Origin: a virus
Length of the DNA: 48,744 nt
Strand: one strand, 5' to 3'
Virus record (IMG/VR): IMGVR_UViG_3300036846_000837
Coordinates: 1-48,744 of that record
Position 1 is the first letter of the stretch; every line of letters begins with the position of its first letter. The position numbers and the translations under genes are program-made. Below are positions 1 to 46,845 of the stretch, one piece after another. Under the pieces are notes generated by a model that made no database searches, was not told where the DNA came from, and was given only the letters and a program-made list of their open reading frames with translations.

Positions 1-43
1 GAAATGTTCAGAGTTTGGCGACGCTATCGTTAAACACATGTAA
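1..43 (+). CDS. icd: Isocitrate dehydrogenase, last 13 codons (5' part outside window)
   Basis: The first 43 bases encode the C-terminus [13 protein letters not shown] followed by TAA, which matches the conserved end of NADP-dependent isocitrate dehydrogenase (TCA cycle, cytosol). The same bases recur at 46750-46792. By analogy with phage 21 and e14, this copy should be the functional gene whose 3' end was restored by phage-carried sequence. That cannot be checked here because the upstream part is missing. Confidence 0.9.
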   Translation, partial: KCSEFGDAIVKHM

Positions 44-65
44 TGGTGTTTAAGCGTTAAATGAT

Positions 66-95
66 AACGGGAGCCTGATGGTTCCCGTTTTTTAT
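66..95 (+). terminator. icd intrinsic terminator, attL copy
   Basis: AACGGGA and TCCCGTT form a stem around a short loop and are followed by a run of six T. It starts 22 bases after the icd stop. The same hairpin with one loop-side change recurs at 46815-46842, so the duplicated segment includes the terminator. Confidence 0.85.
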
Positions 96-112
96 TATTC
101 AAATCGCAACGG

Positions 113-145
113 TTATCAAAACATTATCAAAATAAGTTATCAAAA
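113..145 (+). promoter_or_regulatory. Three direct repeats TTATCAAAA, candidate integrase arm-type sites
   Basis: TTATCAAAA occurs at 113-121, 124-132 and 137-145, spaced 11 and 13 bases apart, close to one helical turn. The same nonamer appears near the other prophage end at 46257-46265 and 46501-46509. Phased short repeats flanking the core on both arms are typical of lambda-family integrase arm sites. Binding is inferred. The rest of 98-415 shows no gene. Confidence 0.5.
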
Positions 146-415
146 CTTGGCCATTTAGGTATTTTTGAGTGGATCAATCTAAAGAGTGAGCTCAGTGCAA
201 ACCATAGGAATGGGGTAGTCCCGTTTCCAAATTACTTGTTTGCTTTAAACAAAATCAGTAACTGCACAAGTCAAATCTGACGAGCATTTTAGCTAGTAAC
301 GGGCGCTAACCTGCCGACCATGTAAAGTCTATCAGTCACAATTAGGTTCTTCATAACCGCAGCGTATTAGTGTTTATTCTTGTCGCACATGACGTTAAGA
401 TTAGAAAAATCGTTA

Positions 416-421
416 TATAAT
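416..421 (+). promoter_or_regulatory. -10 hexamer close to the GTG start of the EVE-HNH gene
   Basis: A perfect TATAAT lies at 416-421, 11 bases before the GTG at 433. A start point 6-7 bases downstream would give an almost leaderless message. No convincing -35 hexamer is seen at normal spacing (CGTTAA at 393-398). Confidence 0.4.
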
Positions 422-432
422 AGGGCTACAAC

Positions 433-1290
433 GTGATTTGGGCTGTGTACATATCTGATAAACCGCATTCAAGAATTAACTTCCCCATTGGTATGAATCA
501 AGGCATTTGGGGGGTTAAAGAGACGAAGAAAGCAACTGTTCAAGAGATAAGGAAAGATGATCTGATTGCCTTTGTTTACTCTATTTCTTGGCTAAAGGCT
601 GAGGGAGCAGCTCCTCCAGGATTCTCGCGTGTGGGGAAAGATCAGCTACAAAATTTCCGAGGACTGGTGCAAAAAATCATAATTGGTCAAGTAACCGAGG
701 GATTTTATACATCTTCCACTAAAGTTTGGCCTGATGATGAGATTTATCCGCATCGTTTTAAGTTCAAAATTGTTCAGGATTTCGGTGAAAATATTTATTT
801 TGGTACAGAGTTCTTCAATGAAGCATTCGTTGAAGCGGTGCGCTATTCGGCTTGTACCCAAGGTTCTATTACCCTAGCCAGTTCGATAGATTTACTGGAA
901 GATATTACATATAACGTCAATGATCAGGATGACGAAGAATCATCTGTTGTCGAACTTGGTTATGAAGGTAAACCTATTATGAGGTTACACCAGTCCCGGG
1001 AAAGAGCTCCCAAAATTGTCAAACAGAAGAAAGATCTTATATTTAACGAGACCGGAAAACTTGAGTGCGAAATCTGCTCAATGAATTTTGAGGAAATATA
1101 CGGTGAGTTGGGCCGAGGTTTTGCTGAGTGTCACCACAAAGAGCCCTTAAGTCTACGGGATAAAAACGAAGAAACGTCTATTCACGATCTTGCTATTGTC
1201 TGTGCAAATTGTCATCGGATGCTTCATAGGAAACGTCCATGGTTATCACTTGATGAATTGAAGGGAATTTATGAAAAACAAAAGTCTTGA
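433..1290 (+). CDS. EVE-like/HNH fusion, putative modification-dependent restriction nuclease
   Basis: The 285-residue protein has two parts. Residues 1 to about 155 resemble the EVE/PUA-like fold that flips or reads modified bases: an N-terminal WAVYIS strand, QGIWGV at 23-28, and VWPDDEIYPHRF at 98-109. Residues 212-265 form an HNH nuclease of the McrA type with C212/C215, ECHH at 232-235 and CANCH at 257-261. EVE-HNH proteins are known as type IV enzymes that cut DNA carrying modified cytosine. Translation starts at GTG; the next in-frame ATG (493) would truncate the EVE-like part. The downstream MazG-like gene overlaps by 20 bases, so the two are probably co-translated. Its place between attL and int marks it as cargo. 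The EVE assignment rests on motif recall. Confidence 0.75.
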   Translation: MIWAVYISDKPHSRINFPIGMNQGIWGVKETKKATVQEIRKDDLIAFVYSISWLKAEGAAPPGFSRVGKDQLQNFRGLVQKIIIGQVTEGFYTSSTKVWPDDEIYPHRFKFKIVQDFGENIYFGTEFFNEAFVEAVRYSACTQGSITLASSIDLLEDITYNVNDQDDEESSVVELGYEGKPIMRLHQSRERAPKIVKQKKDLIFNETGKLECEICSMNFEEIYGELGRGFAECHHKEPLSLRDKNEETSIHDLAIVCANCHRMLHRKRPWLSLDELKGIYEKQKS

Positions 1291-1624
1291 AGACCTACAG
1301 AAGATACTTGCTGACTTTGCTAAGGCCAGAGACTGGGATAAATTCCATTCTCCAAAGAATCTATCGATAGCACTTTCTGTCGAAGCTAGCGAGTTAATAG
1401 AAATATTTCAATGGTTAACGGAGGAAGAGAGTAATAACCTCACTTCGGAACAATTAATTCAGGTTGAGGAAGAGATGTCTGATGTCCTTTTATACCTTCT
1501 TCAGCTTTCGGGGAAATTGAATATTAATATTTTGGAGGCTGCTTATAGGAAACTTGAAGCGAACAATGATAAATATCCTGTTGAGGCTTGCTTTGGATCA
1601 GCAAAAAAGTACACAGAGCTTTAG
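1271..1624 (+). CDS. MazG-like (RS21-C6/dCTPase type) nucleotide pyrophosphohydrolase
   Basis: This 117-residue all-helical protein has the MazG-superfamily metal-binding pattern: EASELIEIFQW near residue 40, and EEEMSDVLLYLL near residue 67. These supply the ExxE and ExxD carboxylates that hydrolyse a (d)NTP to its monophosphate and pyrophosphate. Its length fits the small RS21-C6/XTP3-transactivated subfamily, which prefers dCTP-like substrates, rather than housekeeping two-domain MazG. The ATG lies inside the end of the EVE-HNH gene with AAGGGAA upstream, so it looks translationally coupled. A nucleotide-pool enzyme beside two HNH nucleases suggests a shared defence role or processing of modified nucleotides; this is inference. 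Confidence 0.8.
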   Translation: MKNKSLEDLQKILADFAKARDWDKFHSPKNLSIALSVEASELIEIFQWLTEEESNNLTSEQLIQVEEEMSDVLLYLLQLSGKLNINILEAAYRKLEANNDKYPVEACFGSAKKYTEL

Positions 1625-1642
1625 CACGAAAAGGAGCCCTGA

Positions 1643-1726
1643 ATGACAGCAGGATCTATTCTACTCCAAGTGTATATTATGAGATATCTCAAGCTTATGA
1701 AAAATCAAGGCGGAGAATGCCAGTAA
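1643..1726 (+). CDS. Possible 27-residue peptide in the defence-like island
   Basis: An ATG follows AAGGAG at good spacing and opens a short frame ending at TAA (1724-1726). The peptide begins MTAGSILLQVYIMRYLKLMK. I recognise no family. It fills the gap between the MazG-like and second HNH genes, and may be a leader or a decayed gene. The ribosome site is the only support. Confidence 0.25.
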   Translation: MTAGSILLQVYIMRYLKLMKNQGGECQ

Positions 1727-1817
1727 GTATAGATGTGAACATGATCTCTATAAAAATGTTGCATGTTCATATAGATGCGGAGTATTTTGTAGAAAACACT
1801 TATAAAAGATAAAACCA

Positions 1818-2651
1818 ATGTATGTTCTTGATAGAAATGGAATTGAGCTGAATGCCGAGTGCTTTGTGGGCGAAGAGGATGGCGTTTATGGCCTGATCCT
1901 TGAGTCTTGGGGGCCTGCACATAGAAACAAAGATTATAATGTGGCACTCGATTATATCATTGAGCGGCTGATTTATTCTGGAATAGATAAGGTCACTGTG
2001 TATTTGGCCTCATTGCCAGCCAGAAGATTTATGCCATTTATAGCTGAAAGGAAAATACATCCTGATGAGTATTTCCCTCTAATTGGTAATTCCCCTTCCG
2101 ATATTCGACAAAAAATGTGTAGGTATCAGGCCAATTTCAGTAGTACGGGTAAAAAAACTGCACCCTCTGGGAACAGGACCAAGCGAATAATGATAAGTGT
2201 TCCAGGTGTTAACAGTGCTGAGTTTTGGGATTCTATTATATATGGAGACACATCAACGTTCTTCGAACCGACTGATGATGAGAGTGTTCTAAGTGAAAGG
2301 GTCAGCAGGTTAATAAAACTGCCTTTGAAAGAACCCGAAGGATATAAAATACCTAGTACAGTTGAAAGAGTTAAGAGGGTTTATGTTAGAGATCCTGCTG
2401 TTAAAGCTTGGGTATTGCGGCAGAGCAAGGGATACTGTGAGAGGTGTGGCGAATATGCACCTTTCTCAATTAAATCTGATAGTCCATATCTCGAAGTACA
2501 TCATGTGATACCGCTCTCGTTATCTGGTGCGGATACCGTTAGCAACTGTGTTGCGCTATGCCCGAATTGTCATAGGGCGTTGCATTACAGCGAAAACGCT
2601 GAAGAGTTGATTGAGATGCTTTATATAAAAATTAAAAGATTGCAAAGATGA
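1818..2651 (+). CDS. HNH endonuclease with N-terminal recognition-like domain
   Basis: The 277-residue protein ends in an HNH domain: C207xxC210, EVHH at 226-229 and CPNCHRALH at 248-256, the layout of McrA-type nucleases that chelate zinc and cut DNA. The N-terminal 130 residues contain NKDYNVALDYIIERL (about 37-51) and GNRTKRI (118-124). I recall a similar tyrosine/TKRI pattern in domains fused to HNH nucleases in other bacteria, presumably for DNA recognition. No strong ribosome site precedes the ATG. It follows the EVE-HNH and MazG-like genes on the same strand and ends 55 bases before the int stop, so it is convergent with int. Restriction of incoming DNA is the likely role but is inferred. 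Confidence 0.7.
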   Translation: MYVLDRNGIELNAECFVGEEDGVYGLILESWGPAHRNKDYNVALDYIIERLIYSGIDKVTVYLASLPARRFMPFIAERKIHPDEYFPLIGNSPSDIRQKMCRYQANFSSTGKKTAPSGNRTKRIMISVPGVNSAEFWDSIIYGDTSTFFEPTDDESVLSERVSRLIKLPLKEPEGYKIPSTVERVKRVYVRDPAVKAWVLRQSKGYCERCGEYAPFSIKSDSPYLEVHHVIPLSLSGADTVSNCVALCPNCHRALHYSENAEELIEMLYIKIKRLQR

Positions 2652-2706
2652 TTAGTTAGTTCTGCTGGGATACTGATAGGTGATAGCTCGAGGGTATCCC
2701 ATCAGG

Positions 2707-3834
2707 CTAGCAATTCACTTTTATCCATTCCTTCCCTCTGTCATCGTGATAACGGTCTGTCTGAGACTGCGTTTTGTGTCCCAGAAGTATCTGTGTGTTT
2801 ACTCCTTGGGACTTATATAGCCTTTCAGCAAGCGATCGTTGTTCATGAAATGTTGCTGGTGTGCCGCTCCCCCAATCAATATCAGTTTTATCCCTGGCTT
2901 TGCTAAAGTTGGTTGTCAAAGTATTGCCTGGCACTTTGGCACCACGTTGAGCCATTGATGTCGAACGGAAGTAATGTACAAGATACTGACTGACAGCATA
3001 ATCTCGGCAACGCGAGATAACCTCACGCAAGCTCGTGTTCAAAGCATCGCAACGAAGGGAAAGTGGTAATGCCAATTTTGCACCAGTTTTCTCCTGCACA
3101 ACATGTAAGTGGTCATCCCAGATATCGCTGAATTTCATTGCTGAGATATCACCCAAGCGCTGCCCTGTAACTATGGCCAATAGCATCGCATTGCCCATGT
3201 AGCGATGCTGTTTATCAGCAATGTCGAAAATCTTCTGCCATTCCTCTAGATTCAAACGCTGCCTGGTAATCTTCCTGCGCGGTTGCTTTGTTGCGAGCGC
3301 GGGATTGTAGCCCGGAGGAACTTCACCAACATGCTGAGCCTCTTTGAATACATCGATCAGCACTGAGCGAACAACCTGGCCCATACGTGGCTGTCCGGCG
3401 TCTGTGTACTCATCCAACAACGAAGCGATATCTCTGGCATCAATCTCGGGCAAGGATTTCATTGCAAATTTTTGGCGTAGAAGGTCCACAGGCTTACGTT
3501 TTTGTTTAAACGTGTTGGGCTTGATATCACCGGTGCTAAGTCGTTCTTCCTGTATTTTCCAATACCGGTCGAGCCAGGTACTGACAGTTATATTTTTACC
3601 CTTAATTTGAGCCACACGATCGCTAAGTGCCAGGATCTGCCGGCTACGCTGCTCCGCTAGTCGGCTATTGGCTTCGATCGCAATCTCACGGGCTTCCTGC
3701 TCATTATCGCCAAGAGCATGGTACTTCCCTGTAACTGGATGCCGGTACCGCCAGTACACTTTATTGGCCTTACGACTAAATAGCGGATACAGGTTAGGAA
3801 TATCAACATTGTTCTTACGCGGTCTGACTGCCAT
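2707..3834 (-). CDS. int: Tyrosine-recombinase integrase
   Basis: This 375-residue protein of the phage 21/e14 (lambda) integrase class recombines attP with the 3' end of icd. An arm-binding-like N-terminus (LYPLFSRKANKVYWRYRHP) is followed by a SAM-like core-binding domain (about 80-175) and the catalytic domain. Catalytic residues are visible: R226 (TGQRLGD), K249, H330 and R333 (FHEQR), H353 (LLGHK) and the nucleophile Y362 (RYHDDRG). Its start overlaps the end of xis by 20 bases, so the two are read from one leftward message. It lies 2.7 kb from attL because an accessory island intervenes, unlike the usual adjacent position. Confidence 0.95.
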   Translation of the reverse strand: MAVRPRKNNVDIPNLYPLFSRKANKVYWRYRHPVTGKYHALGDNEQEAREIAIEANSRLAEQRSRQILALSDRVAQIKGKNITVSTWLDRYWKIQEERLSTGDIKPNTFKQKRKPVDLLRQKFAMKSLPEIDARDIASLLDEYTDAGQPRMGQVVRSVLIDVFKEAQHVGEVPPGYNPALATKQPRRKITRQRLNLEEWQKIFDIADKQHRYMGNAMLLAIVTGQRLGDISAMKFSDIWDDHLHVVQEKTGAKLALPLSLRCDALNTSLREVISRCRDYAVSQYLVHYFRSTSMAQRGAKVPGNTLTTNFSKARDKTDIDWGSGTPATFHEQRSLAERLYKSQGVNTQILLGHKTQSQTDRYHDDRGKEWIKVNC

Positions 3835-4060
3835 CGTTCAATATCCTTCGGAGCTTCGGATTGTCGTTGTGCTTAATGACCGGAGTAGTGAGTGGGCCAA
3901 CTAGCTCAGCATCTTCTCGCACACGCCATAACTTGCCTTCCTTACGTGCGGGCGGGGCGAAGTGGCCCTCTTTAGCGCAACGCCGCAAGGTATTTAGAGA
4001 GGGTGGTTTGCTGCGGTATCGCTCCGCAGCCCATTCTTCAAGCGTCAACATCTGTAGCAT
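3815..4060 (-). CDS. xis: Excisionase
   Basis: This 81-residue basic protein starts MLQMLTLEEWAAERYRSKPP, the winged-helix excisionase signature: a LxEWA opening, then LRRCAKEGHFAPPARKEGKLWRV. Xis bends attR and switches Int towards excision. The ATG at 4060 is chosen over one five codons upstream because GGAGG lies six bases before it. It overlaps int by 20 bases. Confidence 0.85.
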   Translation of the reverse strand: MLQMLTLEEWAAERYRSKPPSLNTLRRCAKEGHFAPPARKEGKLWRVREDAELVGPLTTPVIKHNDNPKLRRILNDGSQTA

Positions 4061-4096
4061 CAAGTACCTCCACACATCACCCGCCGCATACGGGCA

Positions 4097-4462
4097 TTAA
4101 TTCAATCGTGACATGTCACACACTGTTAATTTGGTTTCATGCCACCCGTAGGTTTGCCAGCACTCAGAATCACCAAGGAAATAACAACCTGCTGGGTCAC
4201 CTGGTAGTTTGTCTTTGCACTTACCGCAGCACCGTTTATTCCGTGCCGCCAGCTGCTTTTTTAATTCGGCGTTATCCTTCCTGATCAGCATGGTGATGTA
4301 TTCATCCAAGTCGTATGGTTCGCGTTGTGGCCGGCGAGCTGCACAATTCTCTCGTAACATCTTAGCCTCTTGCTGATCTAGCTTGATTTCGACAGGGACA
4401 ATACCCGTCAGTCGCTGGCGCTCGCGTTGGGCTGCTTTACGCTCTGCATTAGTCTTCGCCAT
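4097..4462 (-). CDS. Phage protein of unknown function with cysteine-rich C-terminus
   Basis: The predicted protein has 121 residues. A very basic N-terminus ([17 protein letters not shown]) leads into a helical middle and a cysteine-rich tail (CCGKCKDKL, then CYFLGDSEC) that could bind a metal. The start at 4462 follows GGAG and overlaps the methyltransferase stop by 14 bases. It belongs to the leftward int-xis operon. The family recurs in early left regions of enterobacterial prophages as far as I recall, but no function is known to me. Confidence 0.65.
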   Translation of the reverse strand: MAKTNAERKAAQRERQRLTGIVPVEIKLDQQEAKMLRENCAARRPQREPYDLDEYITMLIRKDNAELKKQLAARNKRCCGKCKDKLPGDPAGCYFLGDSECWQTYGWHETKLTVCDMSRLN

Positions 4463-5309
4463 TGATGATCTCCATATATGCATTTATGAAGGTTTGCGCA
4501 GCTTCCGCATTGATGGCATTGCCATAGGCGCGCAGTCGTCCCACTCTTGCGGTAACCCCATTAACCAACGGGAATGAGCCGGGTCTAACTGGCCGCCACT
4601 TTCCATCCCTGCAGAAGAGCCAGTCAGCATCTCGCCAGAAACCATTAGTCTGGCTTGGGTTCCTGCTCCGGAGGCAGGCCTTGCTGCATTTTCCCCATCT
4701 AATTCCTTCGGGTCTGGCCATGTTGTCAACCACGCCACTCGTCCCAGCAATGAGTTCAGTGGAACATTCAGGCATTCTTTTCCATCCTTCCAGTCCCTCG
4801 TTGTGGGCGTTGGCCACCCAGTATGCGCGGTCACGGATGTGCGGAGAGCCGATGCCCGCAGACGGGAACGGGACAATCCCGAAGGCGTAATCCATTGCTT
4901 CCAAGTCAGCTTGTACAAGGTCGAACCAAGCATTTGCGTTGCCGCTTGCAACTTGCTCGCCAAGGATGTGCTCAGGGCGGCACTCGCTGATGAGCCAATG
5001 GAAATGTGGCCATAGGTGCCGCTCGTCATCAAATCCATCGCCTTTGCCCGCCGTGCTGAAAGGCTGGCACGGACAAGAACCTGTCCAGACTGGTTTATCG
5101 TCAGGCCATCCGGCGTTGCGCAAGGCATAAGACCAGACTCCGATTCCAGCGAAGAAATGGCATTGAGTGTAGTTTCGTAAGTCATCGGGTTTCACATCCT
5201 CGATTGAACGCTCATCAACATCCCCAGGCGCTATATGACCAGCAGCTATCAAATTACGGAGCCACTGGGCGGCGTATGGATCAATTTCGTTGTAATAAGC
5301 AGAAGTCAT
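4449..5309 (-). CDS. Phage DNA (cytosine-5) methyltransferase
   Basis: The 286-residue protein has motif I FAGIG (about 54-58), motif [11 protein letters not shown] with the catalytic cysteine (about 82-90) and motif VI as GEQV instead of the usual ENV. It transfers methyl groups from SAM to cytosine C5, presumably protecting phage DNA from host restriction. The N-terminal 45 residues are an extension before motif I. The C-terminus has [15 protein letters not shown], the GNA(V/I) motif X region. Its start codon overlaps the exonuclease stop (TAATG), so the two are coupled. A second long frame on the same strand overlaps most of it. Confidence 0.88.
4484..5185 (-). CDS. Long overlapping frame inside the methyltransferase gene
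   Basis: A 233-codon frame on the same strand, shifted relative to the methyltransferase, begins [18 protein letters not shown]. It contains [32 protein letters not shown] and ends near [17 protein letters not shown] recall these blocks from a widespread set of phage proteins, always tied to this methyltransferase type. Either the frame is truly translated (dual coding) or it is a conserved shadow of the methyltransferase. The lack of stops over 700 bases and the recurrent WPTP and WLMGLP blocks argue for keeping it on the list; expression is unproven. Confidence 0.3.
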
Positions 5310-5941
5310 TAGGACTTCCTCAGTTCGGCATCCATCTGGAAGCTATTTTGTTGATAGGCAATGGCCATTTGCTCGGCATCGTTCATCGCGTCATGGAGCG
5401 AGTTATGCTTAACCACCGCAAAGCAGGGCTGGTGGGTTTTAGGTAGATAGCCACGGTTTCCCTTTGTCATTGCGTCGATATAAGTGCGTACGTCACGCTT
5501 GCCACCCCAATGCCAAGGGCATTCGATCCCGTTAGTTCTATAGGCATGCTCCAGGATAGAACCATCGAAGTCAGTGCCACGGAAGAATATCCGGGCATCT
5601 GGATGGGCTTTTATCCAATGAGAGAGCAGGGCGAGGCTTTGGCCAATTGGCTCTCGGTCTCCCGCAAGAGCTTCATGTGCATCTTCAGATTGTTCACGCC
5701 ACCAAGCCTGAGTCTTGACGCTTACATTGCGGCCCTGCATTAACTGACCGAAAGTATCTACCAGACAGTAGAAGGCCGTATTTGAGTAATCAGCCATCTC
5801 TGCATCACGGGCTATCTGGATAATGCTTTGTTGTGTTTGACGAACGTCAGAGATATCGAATGCAAATGCCCCAATAGATAGAATCACAGCACTTGGCTTG
5901 GTATCCATTGTTTCGGTATCGATCGTAATAGTGTTGATCAT
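5309..5941 (-). CDS. 3'-5' exonuclease of the RNase H/DnaQ fold
   Basis: This protein of about 210 residues starts MINTITIDTETMDTKPSAVI, with the DxE metal motif (Asp8, Glu10) of DEDD exonucleases. Later acidic motifs appear as FFRGTDFDGSILEHAY and SLHDAMNDAEQMA, the last resembling the HDAxxD motif of the DEDDh class. It resembles the exonuclease VIII-like proteins of phage early regions. The ATG at 5941 is chosen because the DxE motif follows at once; an in-frame ATG 18 codons upstream adds unlikely sequence. Its stop overlaps the methyltransferase start. A role in recombination or degradation of competing DNA is inferred. Confidence 0.8.
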   Translation of the reverse strand: MINTITIDTETMDTKPSAVILSIGAFAFDISDVRQTQQSIIQIARDAEMADYSNTAFYCLVDTFGQLMQGRNVSVKTQAWWREQSEDAHEALAGDREPIGQSLALLSHWIKAHPDARIFFRGTDFDGSILEHAYRTNGIECPWHWGGKRDVRTYIDAMTKGNRGYLPKTHQPCFAVVKHNSLHDAMNDAEQMAIAYQQNSFQMDAELRKS

Positions 5942-6221
5942 GTTAATTACTCCACACTGTTCTTCGGAAAAGTGAAACTTGGCCTGGAAGGTCATATTTC
6001 GTCCAAGTTAAAAGTGGTTTGGTGTTTGAGGACAATAACCCGCATAGTTAAGCCTCATACTTTCTATTAGACATGCCCATAAAAACTTCATTAGTTAAAT
6101 TATAAAATACATGAAAAATAGAACGCTAATTAATGTTAAATGAAATTATCAATAACTGTAACATTGTCATAATTAATGGGAGTCCAGTATAGTATTGCTT
6201 TTAAAATATACTAGGTGACTC

Positions 6222-6812
6222 ATGAGTATAAATTTGGCTATGTATAGGTACAACAATGCAATTGATAGAGGACGAAAGTCCATACAGCTTTCAATAGCAA
6301 TAATGACTGTTTGGATGGCATTGTGTATTTTTGTTTTTAAGGTGATAGATTTATCTATAGGTAATACTAGTTTAAATGCTGCAATTCATATTGATTTTAA
6401 CTGGAAAGTCTTCTCGACATGGGGGATTATTACATTATTCACTTTGACAGGTGCTTTCACGTATGGATTCCTTGCATCCAATACTGAATTGAAAAATGCT
6501 AATGAAATAATAAATAATTTTTTTATCTCAGATGACGATGATCCAGCCAGGTTGACAGTAATAGTTAAAAAGCTGAACGAAATCACTAACGAGCTTGAAA
6601 ATTTTTATATAAAATCCTCAGCTCTAAATTTGATATCATTTATTCTTGTATTCGTTAGTTTTACAACTGGCTATCTGTCTGTTGAGGAGGTAATTAAGTT
6701 CTTGGATAAACATGACTTACTTTACTCTATAGGGGCATCCATAGCTATTCTTGTTTTTGTTGGTAATTACCAAAAGTTAACTTTATGGTTAAAAAAAAAG
6801 AAAGAAAAATAA
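6222..6812 (+). CDS. Four-helix inner-membrane protein, unknown, AT-rich accessory gene
   Basis: The 196-residue protein has hydrophobic segments at about 21-42, 64-84, 133-153 and 166-182. A cytosol-facing helical stretch (85-130, with SDDDDPARL) lies between the second and third, and the end is very basic (LKKKKEK). It is clearly more AT-rich than its neighbours and runs against the flanking leftward early operon, both marks of an inserted accessory gene. I recognise no family. Membrane proteins in such sites often mediate superinfection exclusion; that is a guess from position and topology only. Confidence 0.7.
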   Translation: MSINLAMYRYNNAIDRGRKSIQLSIAIMTVWMALCIFVFKVIDLSIGNTSLNAAIHIDFNWKVFSTWGIITLFTLTGAFTYGFLASNTELKNANEIINNFFISDDDDPARLTVIVKKLNEITNELENFYIKSSALNLISFILVFVSFTTGYLSVEEVIKFLDKHDLLYSIGASIAILVFVGNYQKLTLWLKKKKEK

Positions 6813-6877: not shown

Positions 6878-7065
6878 GAAAAAAGTGCGGCTGACACCAA
6901 CCCAGCGAACAGCCGCCAAGACTACACACAGCATAAATTCTTGCCGGATATCCGCGCTTGCTTTCGCTGCAGTGCCGCCGGCGCGGCGCATAAGGTGTGG
7001 CGGCTGGTAAACAACGCCCCCGAAGTTTCCAGCCTAACCACATCGGTATGCTCACTCATGAGTGT

Positions 7066-7113
7066 CAGGATTCTCCACCGCTTCCAGACTTAAGGGAAAG
7101 GGCGAGTGAGCAT
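7066..7113. repeat. Imperfect 48-bp repeat, copy 1
   Basis: The segment containing TCTCCACCGCTTCCAGACTT and ending GAGTGAGCATGC is similar to 7841-7888. Each copy lies 50-200 bases on the plus-strand side of a boxA-like element, so the unit boxA plus repeat appears duplicated around the 7231-7746 gene. Confidence 0.6.
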
Positions 7114-7230
7114 GCCGTTGTGTGCCTGGTTAAACTTATCCACCTCAGGCGGCGGTGGACCTTGCTATTCCCCAACAACAAGGATTCGGTTAATCTGGAT
7201 ATCCCCAACAACAATAGAGTAATCGACAAG

Positions 7231-7788: not shown

Positions 7789-7840
7789 GTATCGTCACGA
7801 AGGGCGTTTTTTCTTGCGAACCATCCCGACTGAGTTTCTG

Positions 7841-7888
7841 AACTCTCCACCTTACTCAGACTCAAGGAAAAGGGTGAGTGAGCATGCT
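7841..7888. repeat. Imperfect 48-bp repeat, copy 2
   Basis: This segment includes CTCTCCACCTTACTCAGACT and ends GTGAGTGAGCATGC, paralleling 7066-7113. A further short echo (GCGAATCATCCCGATC near 8126 against GCGAACCATCCCGACT near 7816) suggests the leader grew by duplication. Confidence 0.55.
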
Positions 7889-7906
7889 GATGTGGGCCAG
7901 CTTTTA

Positions 7907-8098
7907 CTATCCAGCAATGTCACAGCACGGTTCTTGAACTTGAGATGAAAGGGTGGCGGCTGCCGAAAGATGCCATTTTTGGCAATCAGCACCCTGAAGA
8001 CTAAGTACTTGCAACTCACATAAGTTAGTTTCTGCAGTTGCTTTAATTAACCGCCAGAATTCAATTTTGGCGGTAACACTTTCAGATCCTTCCATCAT
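7907..8098 (-). CDS. Small first gene of the leftward early operon
   Basis: The 63-residue protein begins MMEGSESVTAKIEFWRLI and is preceded by AGAGG at six bases. It is the first frame after the predicted pL, the place of N in lambda. It is not arginine-rich at the N-terminus as N proteins are, and has three cysteines. I cannot name it. Its location and ribosome site support it being real. Confidence 0.5.
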   Translation of the reverse strand: MMEGSESVTAKIEFWRLIKATAETNLCELQVLSLQGADCQKWHLSAAATLSSQVQEPCCDIAG

Positions 8099-46627: not shown

Positions 46628-46792
46628 ATGCTGCGTCACATGGGCTGGTTCGAAGCGGCTGACCTGATTGTTAAGGGCATGGAAGGCGCAATCGCTGCCA
46701 AGACCGTGACCTATGACTTCGAACGCCTGATGGATGGCGCTAAACTGCTGAAATGTTCAGAGTTTGGCGACGCTATCGTTAAACACATGTAA
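46628..46792 (+). pseudogene. icd: Displaced 3' fragment of icd at attR
   Basis: The fragment reads [20 protein letters not shown] through [16 protein letters not shown] and stop, the last 54 residues of isocitrate dehydrogenase. Upstream sequence is unrelated, so this is the host end cut off by integration. Its length of 165 bp matches the fragment displaced by phage 21 and e14 in E. coli, which places the crossover near its start. Confidence 0.93.
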
Positions 46793-46814
46793 GGGTGCTT
46801 TAGCGTTGAATGAT

Positions 46815-46842
46815 AACGGGAACCTGATGGTTCCCGTTTTTT
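46815..46842 (+). terminator. icd intrinsic terminator, attR copy
   Basis: AACGGGAA and TTCCCGTT form a stem followed by six T, as at 66-95. Confidence 0.85.
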
Positions 46843-46845
46843 ATT

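Follow-up and report, generated by a model that had tools for sequence, protein, structure and literature searches.

Genes for a nuclease that joins an EVE reader to an HNH domain (EVE-HNH) and for an overlapping MazG-like nucleotide pyrophosphohydrolase form a pair that recurs in at least five unrelated settings, one of which is the attachment-site end of a lambda-type prophage in the 48,744 nt of viral DNA analysed here (IMG/VR record IMGVR_UViG_3300036846_000837, hereafter the window). In our judgement the chances are roughly even that the pair is a prophage-borne type IV restriction cassette in which MazG removes 5-modified dCTP, more probably to shield the lysogen from EVE-HNH than to attack the phage. 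EVE-HNH nucleases, McrA (encoded by a third gene beside the pair) and DCTPP1-like enzymes are all known families; no account was found of the first paired with the last, nor of the way this pairing seems to extend to further reader-HNH nucleases. No description of the EVE-HNH/MazG pair, nor of McrA, prophage and MazG together, was found in the literature searched, with most subscription papers lying outside the reach of either search.

Cargo between the attachment site and the integrase

The genes lie at the left end of the prophage, in the following order:

1–96, no strand: attL-like direct repeat; attR copy at 46750–46845, 95% identical; sequence shared with the att end of phage Kp4865-4
433–1290, plus strand: EVE-HNH, predicted modification-dependent nuclease; 285 aa, GTG start, HNH family match, EVE fold
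1271–1624, plus strand: DCTPP1/RS21-C6-type MazG-like nucleotide pyrophosphohydrolase; 117 aa, MazG-like match, overlaps the upstream gene
1818–2651, plus strand: McrA, EcoKMcrA family type IV restriction enzyme with NEco reader and HNH domain; 277 aa
2707–3834, minus strand: int, lambda-type tyrosine integrase; family match, convergent with the cargo genes

The original prediction placed three co-directional genes here, the first two overlapping by 20 nt, and the open reading frames bear this out: the EVE-HNH and mazG genes overlap by exactly that length (1271–1290), and 193 nt separate mazG from mcrA. A further reading frame between mazG and mcrA (1588–1812) was considered as a gene and rejected, with no family match above the curated cut-off. 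The prediction was equally right that these genes part int from attL, two elements that are normally adjacent. From its sequence, the 96-nt direct repeat recovered in a repeat comparison of the window fits the attL and attR of a prophage; its left copy contains a terminator-like hairpin (66–89). Klebsiella phage Kp4865-4, whose int is 75% identical to that of the window, carries the att sequence of window positions 66–146 at its own positions 21–100, and its int gene ends 24 nt away, at 125. As this phage has the same integrase type and nothing in the interval, the ~2.5 kb between att and int in the window is inserted cargo.

The cargo genes have a GC content of 38–41%, against 51% in the rest of the prophage, a kind of deviation that is common in acquired cargo. 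They are taken to be real genes because close homologues in Morganella and Klebsiella keep 77–83% identity over their full length. A search of E. coli for DNA near-identical to positions 1–2700 gave no match, and a promoter scan of positions 1–4000 returned fewer sites than were found in shuffled sequence. Elsewhere in the window lie a 78-nt direct repeat (7059–7136 and 7831–7908, 76% identical) and, outside the attR repeat towards the right edge, an AT-rich and possibly acquired acyltransferase gene (PF01757, 47301–48275, plus strand).

The two enzymes of the pair

The first protein has an EVE domain of the PUA superfamily at residues ~1–160 and an HNH domain at ~205–270. By sequence the EVE signal in the window protein is weak (NF002008 PRK00809, E 3e-4), and the same PRK00809 model is matched by all 13 full-length homologues. 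Structure prediction had been named in advance as the check on the proposed EVE-like region, and the region does fold as EVE/PUA in an AlphaFold2 model built on an alignment of 11 homologues: Foldseek ranked the EVE proteins 2p5d, 2hd9 and 1wmm top (E ~5e-6), followed by YTH domains, and VIA-align gave Z 11.2 against 1wmm (3.7 Å over 129 residues) and Z 8.8 over 121 residues against VcaM4I (6yex), the EVE-HNH enzyme with a characterised structure. Confidence in the whole model is medium (mean pLDDT 62), with residues 21–160 mostly at 70–87 and a weak stretch at ~51–70; in the predicted structure, the EVE/PUA fold of the N-terminal domain is confirmed. Four residues conserved across the homologues (W26, Y92, W99 and P100) are candidates for a pocket holding a flipped 5mC or 5hmC.

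The C-terminus scores above the PF01844 cut-off with its HNH motif intact, and its Cys4 set (C212, C215, C257, C260) and histidines (H234, H261, H265) are all invariant in 13 homologues. The domain is of the Cys4, McrA-like form, and by sequence the closest solved HNH domain is that of EcoKMcrA (6ghc). From these likenesses we infer both substrate and cleavage: the protein is predicted to be a modification-dependent nuclease cutting 5hmC or 5mC DNA. VcaM4I and other EVE-HNH enzymes have the same arrangement of N-terminal EVE/PUA reader and C-terminal HNH domain (PMC7897488; PMC7641849), whereas the window enzyme departs from VcaM4I in the type of its HNH domain, Cys4 and McrA-like rather than VcaM4I-like, and in having an overlapping MazG gene.

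Among proteins of solved structure, the MazG-like protein is closest to human dCTP pyrophosphatase 1 (DCTPP1) and RS21-C6 (2a3q, 6sqw; E 3.7e-25). Over the aligned domain its metal- and nucleotide-site positions are identical to theirs, with the same residue at each position aligned to DCTPP1 W47, E63, E66, W73, E95, D98, Y102, K121, N125 and Y129, and these ten positions are invariant in 11 relatives. The ExxE...ExxD metal site is intact, E38, E41, E68 and D71 corresponding to DCTPP1 E63, E66, E95 and D98, and the remaining six positions we take to be those that contact the nucleotide. The window enzyme differs from DCTPP1 and RS21-C6 in being shorter, in having Leu in place of DCTPP1 H38 and in sharing an operon with a nuclease. 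The proposal that the MazG-like enzyme acts on modified nucleotides finds support in this family, whose members DCTPP1 and RS21-C6 are reported to hydrolyse 5-methyl-dCTP (PMC10742078); by analogy, the window MazG may hydrolyse 5-modified dCTP to the monophosphate and could in this way control the modified-nucleotide pool. MutT homologues adjoin SauUSI (PMC7641849), which likewise sets a nucleotide pyrophosphohydrolase beside a modification-dependent restriction enzyme, but MutT has a Nudix fold where the window MazG is all-alpha, and the class of nuclease differs.

Recurrence of the pair

An overlapping mazG lies at the 3′ end of EVE-HNH in 11 of 13 full-length loci. The overlaps measure 14–35 nt (up to 56 nt if an upstream start is used) and are retained across 38–80% identity of the nucleases; the cassette is probably translationally coupled. 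The other two loci, L090 and L092, have EVE-HNH without an intact MazG, and in L092 the first codons of mazG remain before a truncation. More distant EVE-HNH genes (33–40% identity) at loci L102–L104 have no MazG, and genome G280 has an additional pair on its chromosome. When the search was begun from MazG instead, EVE-HNH lay upstream in all eight of the closest viral loci inspected.

Conserved order in unrelated contexts had been named as support for a unit, and for these two genes such order is found; it does not extend to mcrA, which was not seen beside the pair at the other loci. The pair sits between attL and int of the lambda-type prophage in the window, in a P2/186-like Vibrio phage (L002), in a Morganella locus and the G280 locus (both near smpB, with an integrase next to the one in G280), in a Klebsiella locus, and between the lysis and terminase genes of an IMG/VR phage lineage. 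The MazG type itself occurs in four of 296 genomes of the Klebsiella host's order, twice in the pair and twice in ordinary, housekeeping-like contexts (L196 and L197).

Two neighbouring arrangements were also seen. The Vibrio phage L002 has a row of genes (1885–6636) for a McrA-like HNH protein, EVE-HNH, MazG, a HEPN protein and a GmrSD_N-type protein (PADLOC NsnA / PD-T4-2 models). Locus L139 (7684–10088, minus strand) carries in tandem a small HNH gene, an EVE-HNH ~38% identical to that of the window and an HNH gene ~56% identical to the HNH region of McrA, with no MazG.

MazG beside other reader-HNH nucleases

In Gram-positive prophages, distant MazGs (~45% identity) have a gene for a ~325-aa protein on their 3′ side, in most cases no more than ~50 nt away; the model of the whole protein has a mean pLDDT of 80. 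Its modelled N-terminal domain matches the McrB N-terminal domain of Thermococcus gammatolerans (6p0f; Z 14.8, 2.7 Å, 155 residues) and also the structure of VcaM4I, the enzyme to which its HNH domain is similar in sequence (E 2.7e-7). Actinobacterial plasmids, from Nocardiopsis and Streptomyces, show the same order of MazG and then a VcaM4I-like nuclease. Two further MazGs, at L161 and in a Priestia plasmid, sit after MrcB_N (DUF3578) proteins that end in an HNH or HNH-like domain, and in the Priestia plasmid a MutT gene lies directly upstream. A small HNH gene divergent from the MazG/VcaM4I-like pair is present at L166 (5186–5827, minus strand) and in many similar Gram-positive prophages.

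A MazG tree groups the EVE-linked genes in one clade (support 92/73), recovered as such in 88% of bootstrap trees. The MazGs linked to VcaM4I-like nucleases lie outside it; the label needs four changes on the tree, at least two of them forced by well supported branches. By this tree, MazG of this type probably became associated with reader-HNH nucleases on more than one occasion. Plasmid contexts of the distant MazGs are mixed, including an SLFN-type helicase, a transposase and no nuclease at all, so the association is frequent and not universal. Most loci of this wider pattern were collected via MazG, which biases the counts towards pairs; when 399 genomes of the Paenibacillus class (Bacilli) were sampled from the nuclease side, only one of four VcaM4I-like genes had a MazG upstream. 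The McrB domain that best matches the reader of the Gram-positive partner has been described as a 6mA sensor (PMC7897488), and a purely cytosine-based model therefore fits that partner poorly. It is possible, if on balance doubtful, that DCTPP1-type MazGs partner reader-HNH type IV enzymes as a class (EVE-HNH, McrB-N/EVE-HNH and MrcB_N-HNH) across phyla, guarding the dNTP pool as antidote or second weapon.

At three loci on viral contigs (L151, L156 and L188, ~5000–6350 in each) a DCTPP1-like MazG lies directly 3′ of an apparent N6/N4-type DNA methylase (confirmed by Pfam at L151 alone), which looks like another recurring partnership of MazG.

What the pair may do for the lysogen

VcaM4I uses its EVE domain to flip 5mC or 5hmC, and this licenses the HNH domain (PMC7897488). 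In the window enzyme the EVE domain would take up a flipped 5hmC or 5mC in its pocket and the HNH domain would cut, and by this means the lysogen would restrict superinfecting phages with modified DNA. A host that carries such a nuclease without a protective methylase would be endangered if 5-modified dCTP were to enter its own DNA, for instance when a modified phage brings in a kinase that makes hm-dCTP. MazG would clear the 5-modified dCTP, the DNA of the lysogen would stay unmodified and the host would escape cutting by EVE-HNH. Phages that depend on free hm-dCTP to make hmC DNA would be starved by this activity as well. That MazG serves protection of the lysogen or attack on the phage is probable when the two are taken together. 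Sequence cannot separate them; protection of the lysogen is favoured because removing the modification undercuts the partner nuclease during an attack and does not do so in self-protection. One point that may conflict with this picture is that the prophage encodes a C5-cytosine DNA methylase of its own (4449–5309, minus strand; PF00145, E 9e-13), so both nucleases must either ignore its mark or not read its context.

Were MazG chiefly a weapon, it would destroy phage 5hm-dCTP (or dCTP generally), leaving the phage to make unmodified, restrictable DNA or to stall, while EVE-HNH cuts whatever DNA is modified. Recurrence of the pair is the same genetic evidence for this as for protection of the lysogen, and DefensePredictor predicts nucleotide-metabolism domains including MazG as defensive, without validation (PMC13092281). 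There, as here, a MazG-domain gene is assigned to defence computationally; the DefensePredictor assignment is a machine-learning prediction, and the part of the source consulted names no EVE-HNH partner. Yet each modification removed would be a target lost to EVE-HNH, which partly opposes the two arms, and EVE-HNH also exists without MazG, and we consider a primarily offensive role rather unlikely.

MazG might instead be a housekeeping or phage-fitness nucleotidase, linked to the nuclease by chance and hitchhiking with it. DCTPP1-like MazGs do occur in housekeeping-like contexts and beside DNA methylases, and a single event could account for the EVE-linked MazGs, which all belong to one clade. 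This reading appears unlikely when set against an overlap kept over the full range of nuclease identity in several unrelated settings, against the partnership of MazGs from other clades with reader-HNH nucleases of other kinds, in one case with the gene order reversed, and against the rarity of this MazG type in the host's order, where half of its few occurrences are in the pair.

McrA as a probable separate module

The three genes had been proposed to form one compound system of two HNH nucleases with different readers and a MazG-like enzyme. HNH domains are indeed present in the first and third reading frames and a MazG-like domain in the second, but the second HNH nuclease proved to be the known enzyme McrA. 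The protein aligns with PADLOC type IV model PDLC03656 along residues 1–277 of 277 (E 6.4e-134) and with solved EcoKMcrA (6ghc) along its full length of 277 residues (E 5.5e-128). As expected from EcoKMcrA, it keeps the Cys4 ligands together with three histidines of the HNH motif (C207, C210, H228, C248, C251, H252 and H256). EcoKMcrA restricts 5mC and 5hmC DNA, and McrA acts as a single-protein enzyme (structure 6ghc). The window copy differs from it in position only, lying by EVE-HNH and MazG near attL where the E. coli copy lies beside the pin invertase.

McrA DNA matches, at 70–78% identity, were found in 340 of 5,426 complete E. coli genomes, while the EVE-HNH/MazG region had zero matches in the same genomes, sensitive mode included. 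One of the E. coli matches inspected is an intact mcrA beside pin, and another appears broken. McrA was sought beside the pair at L004, L005, L084–L092 and L101, and none was found. Since it is widespread in E. coli without the pair and absent at the other pair loci, McrA seems to be a separate module that adjoins the pair by chance, and the window copy is probably a second type IV enzyme that was independently acquired. A three-part system, to which the shared direction and adjacency of the genes in the window and a different McrA-like HNH upstream of the pair in Vibrio phages might point, is most improbable and was rejected, given the 193-nt gap and the occurrence of McrA without the pair and of the pair without McrA.

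Significance

The EVE-HNH/MazG pair appears to be a partnership in phage defence that has been little described. Type IV enzymes lack a methylase to guard the host, and a coupled enzyme that cleans the nucleotide pool would fill that gap, the modified nucleotides in the cell having sources such as phage DNA breakdown and phage-encoded kinases. Such a protective role, if real, would also suggest a function for the MazG genes that machine learning has flagged as defensive and that were unvalidated at the time of that study (PMC13092281). Should the association extend to the whole class of reader-HNH enzymes, it would be a means by which modification-dependent nucleases are carried safely, a form of restriction guarded through the nucleotide pool without a methylase.
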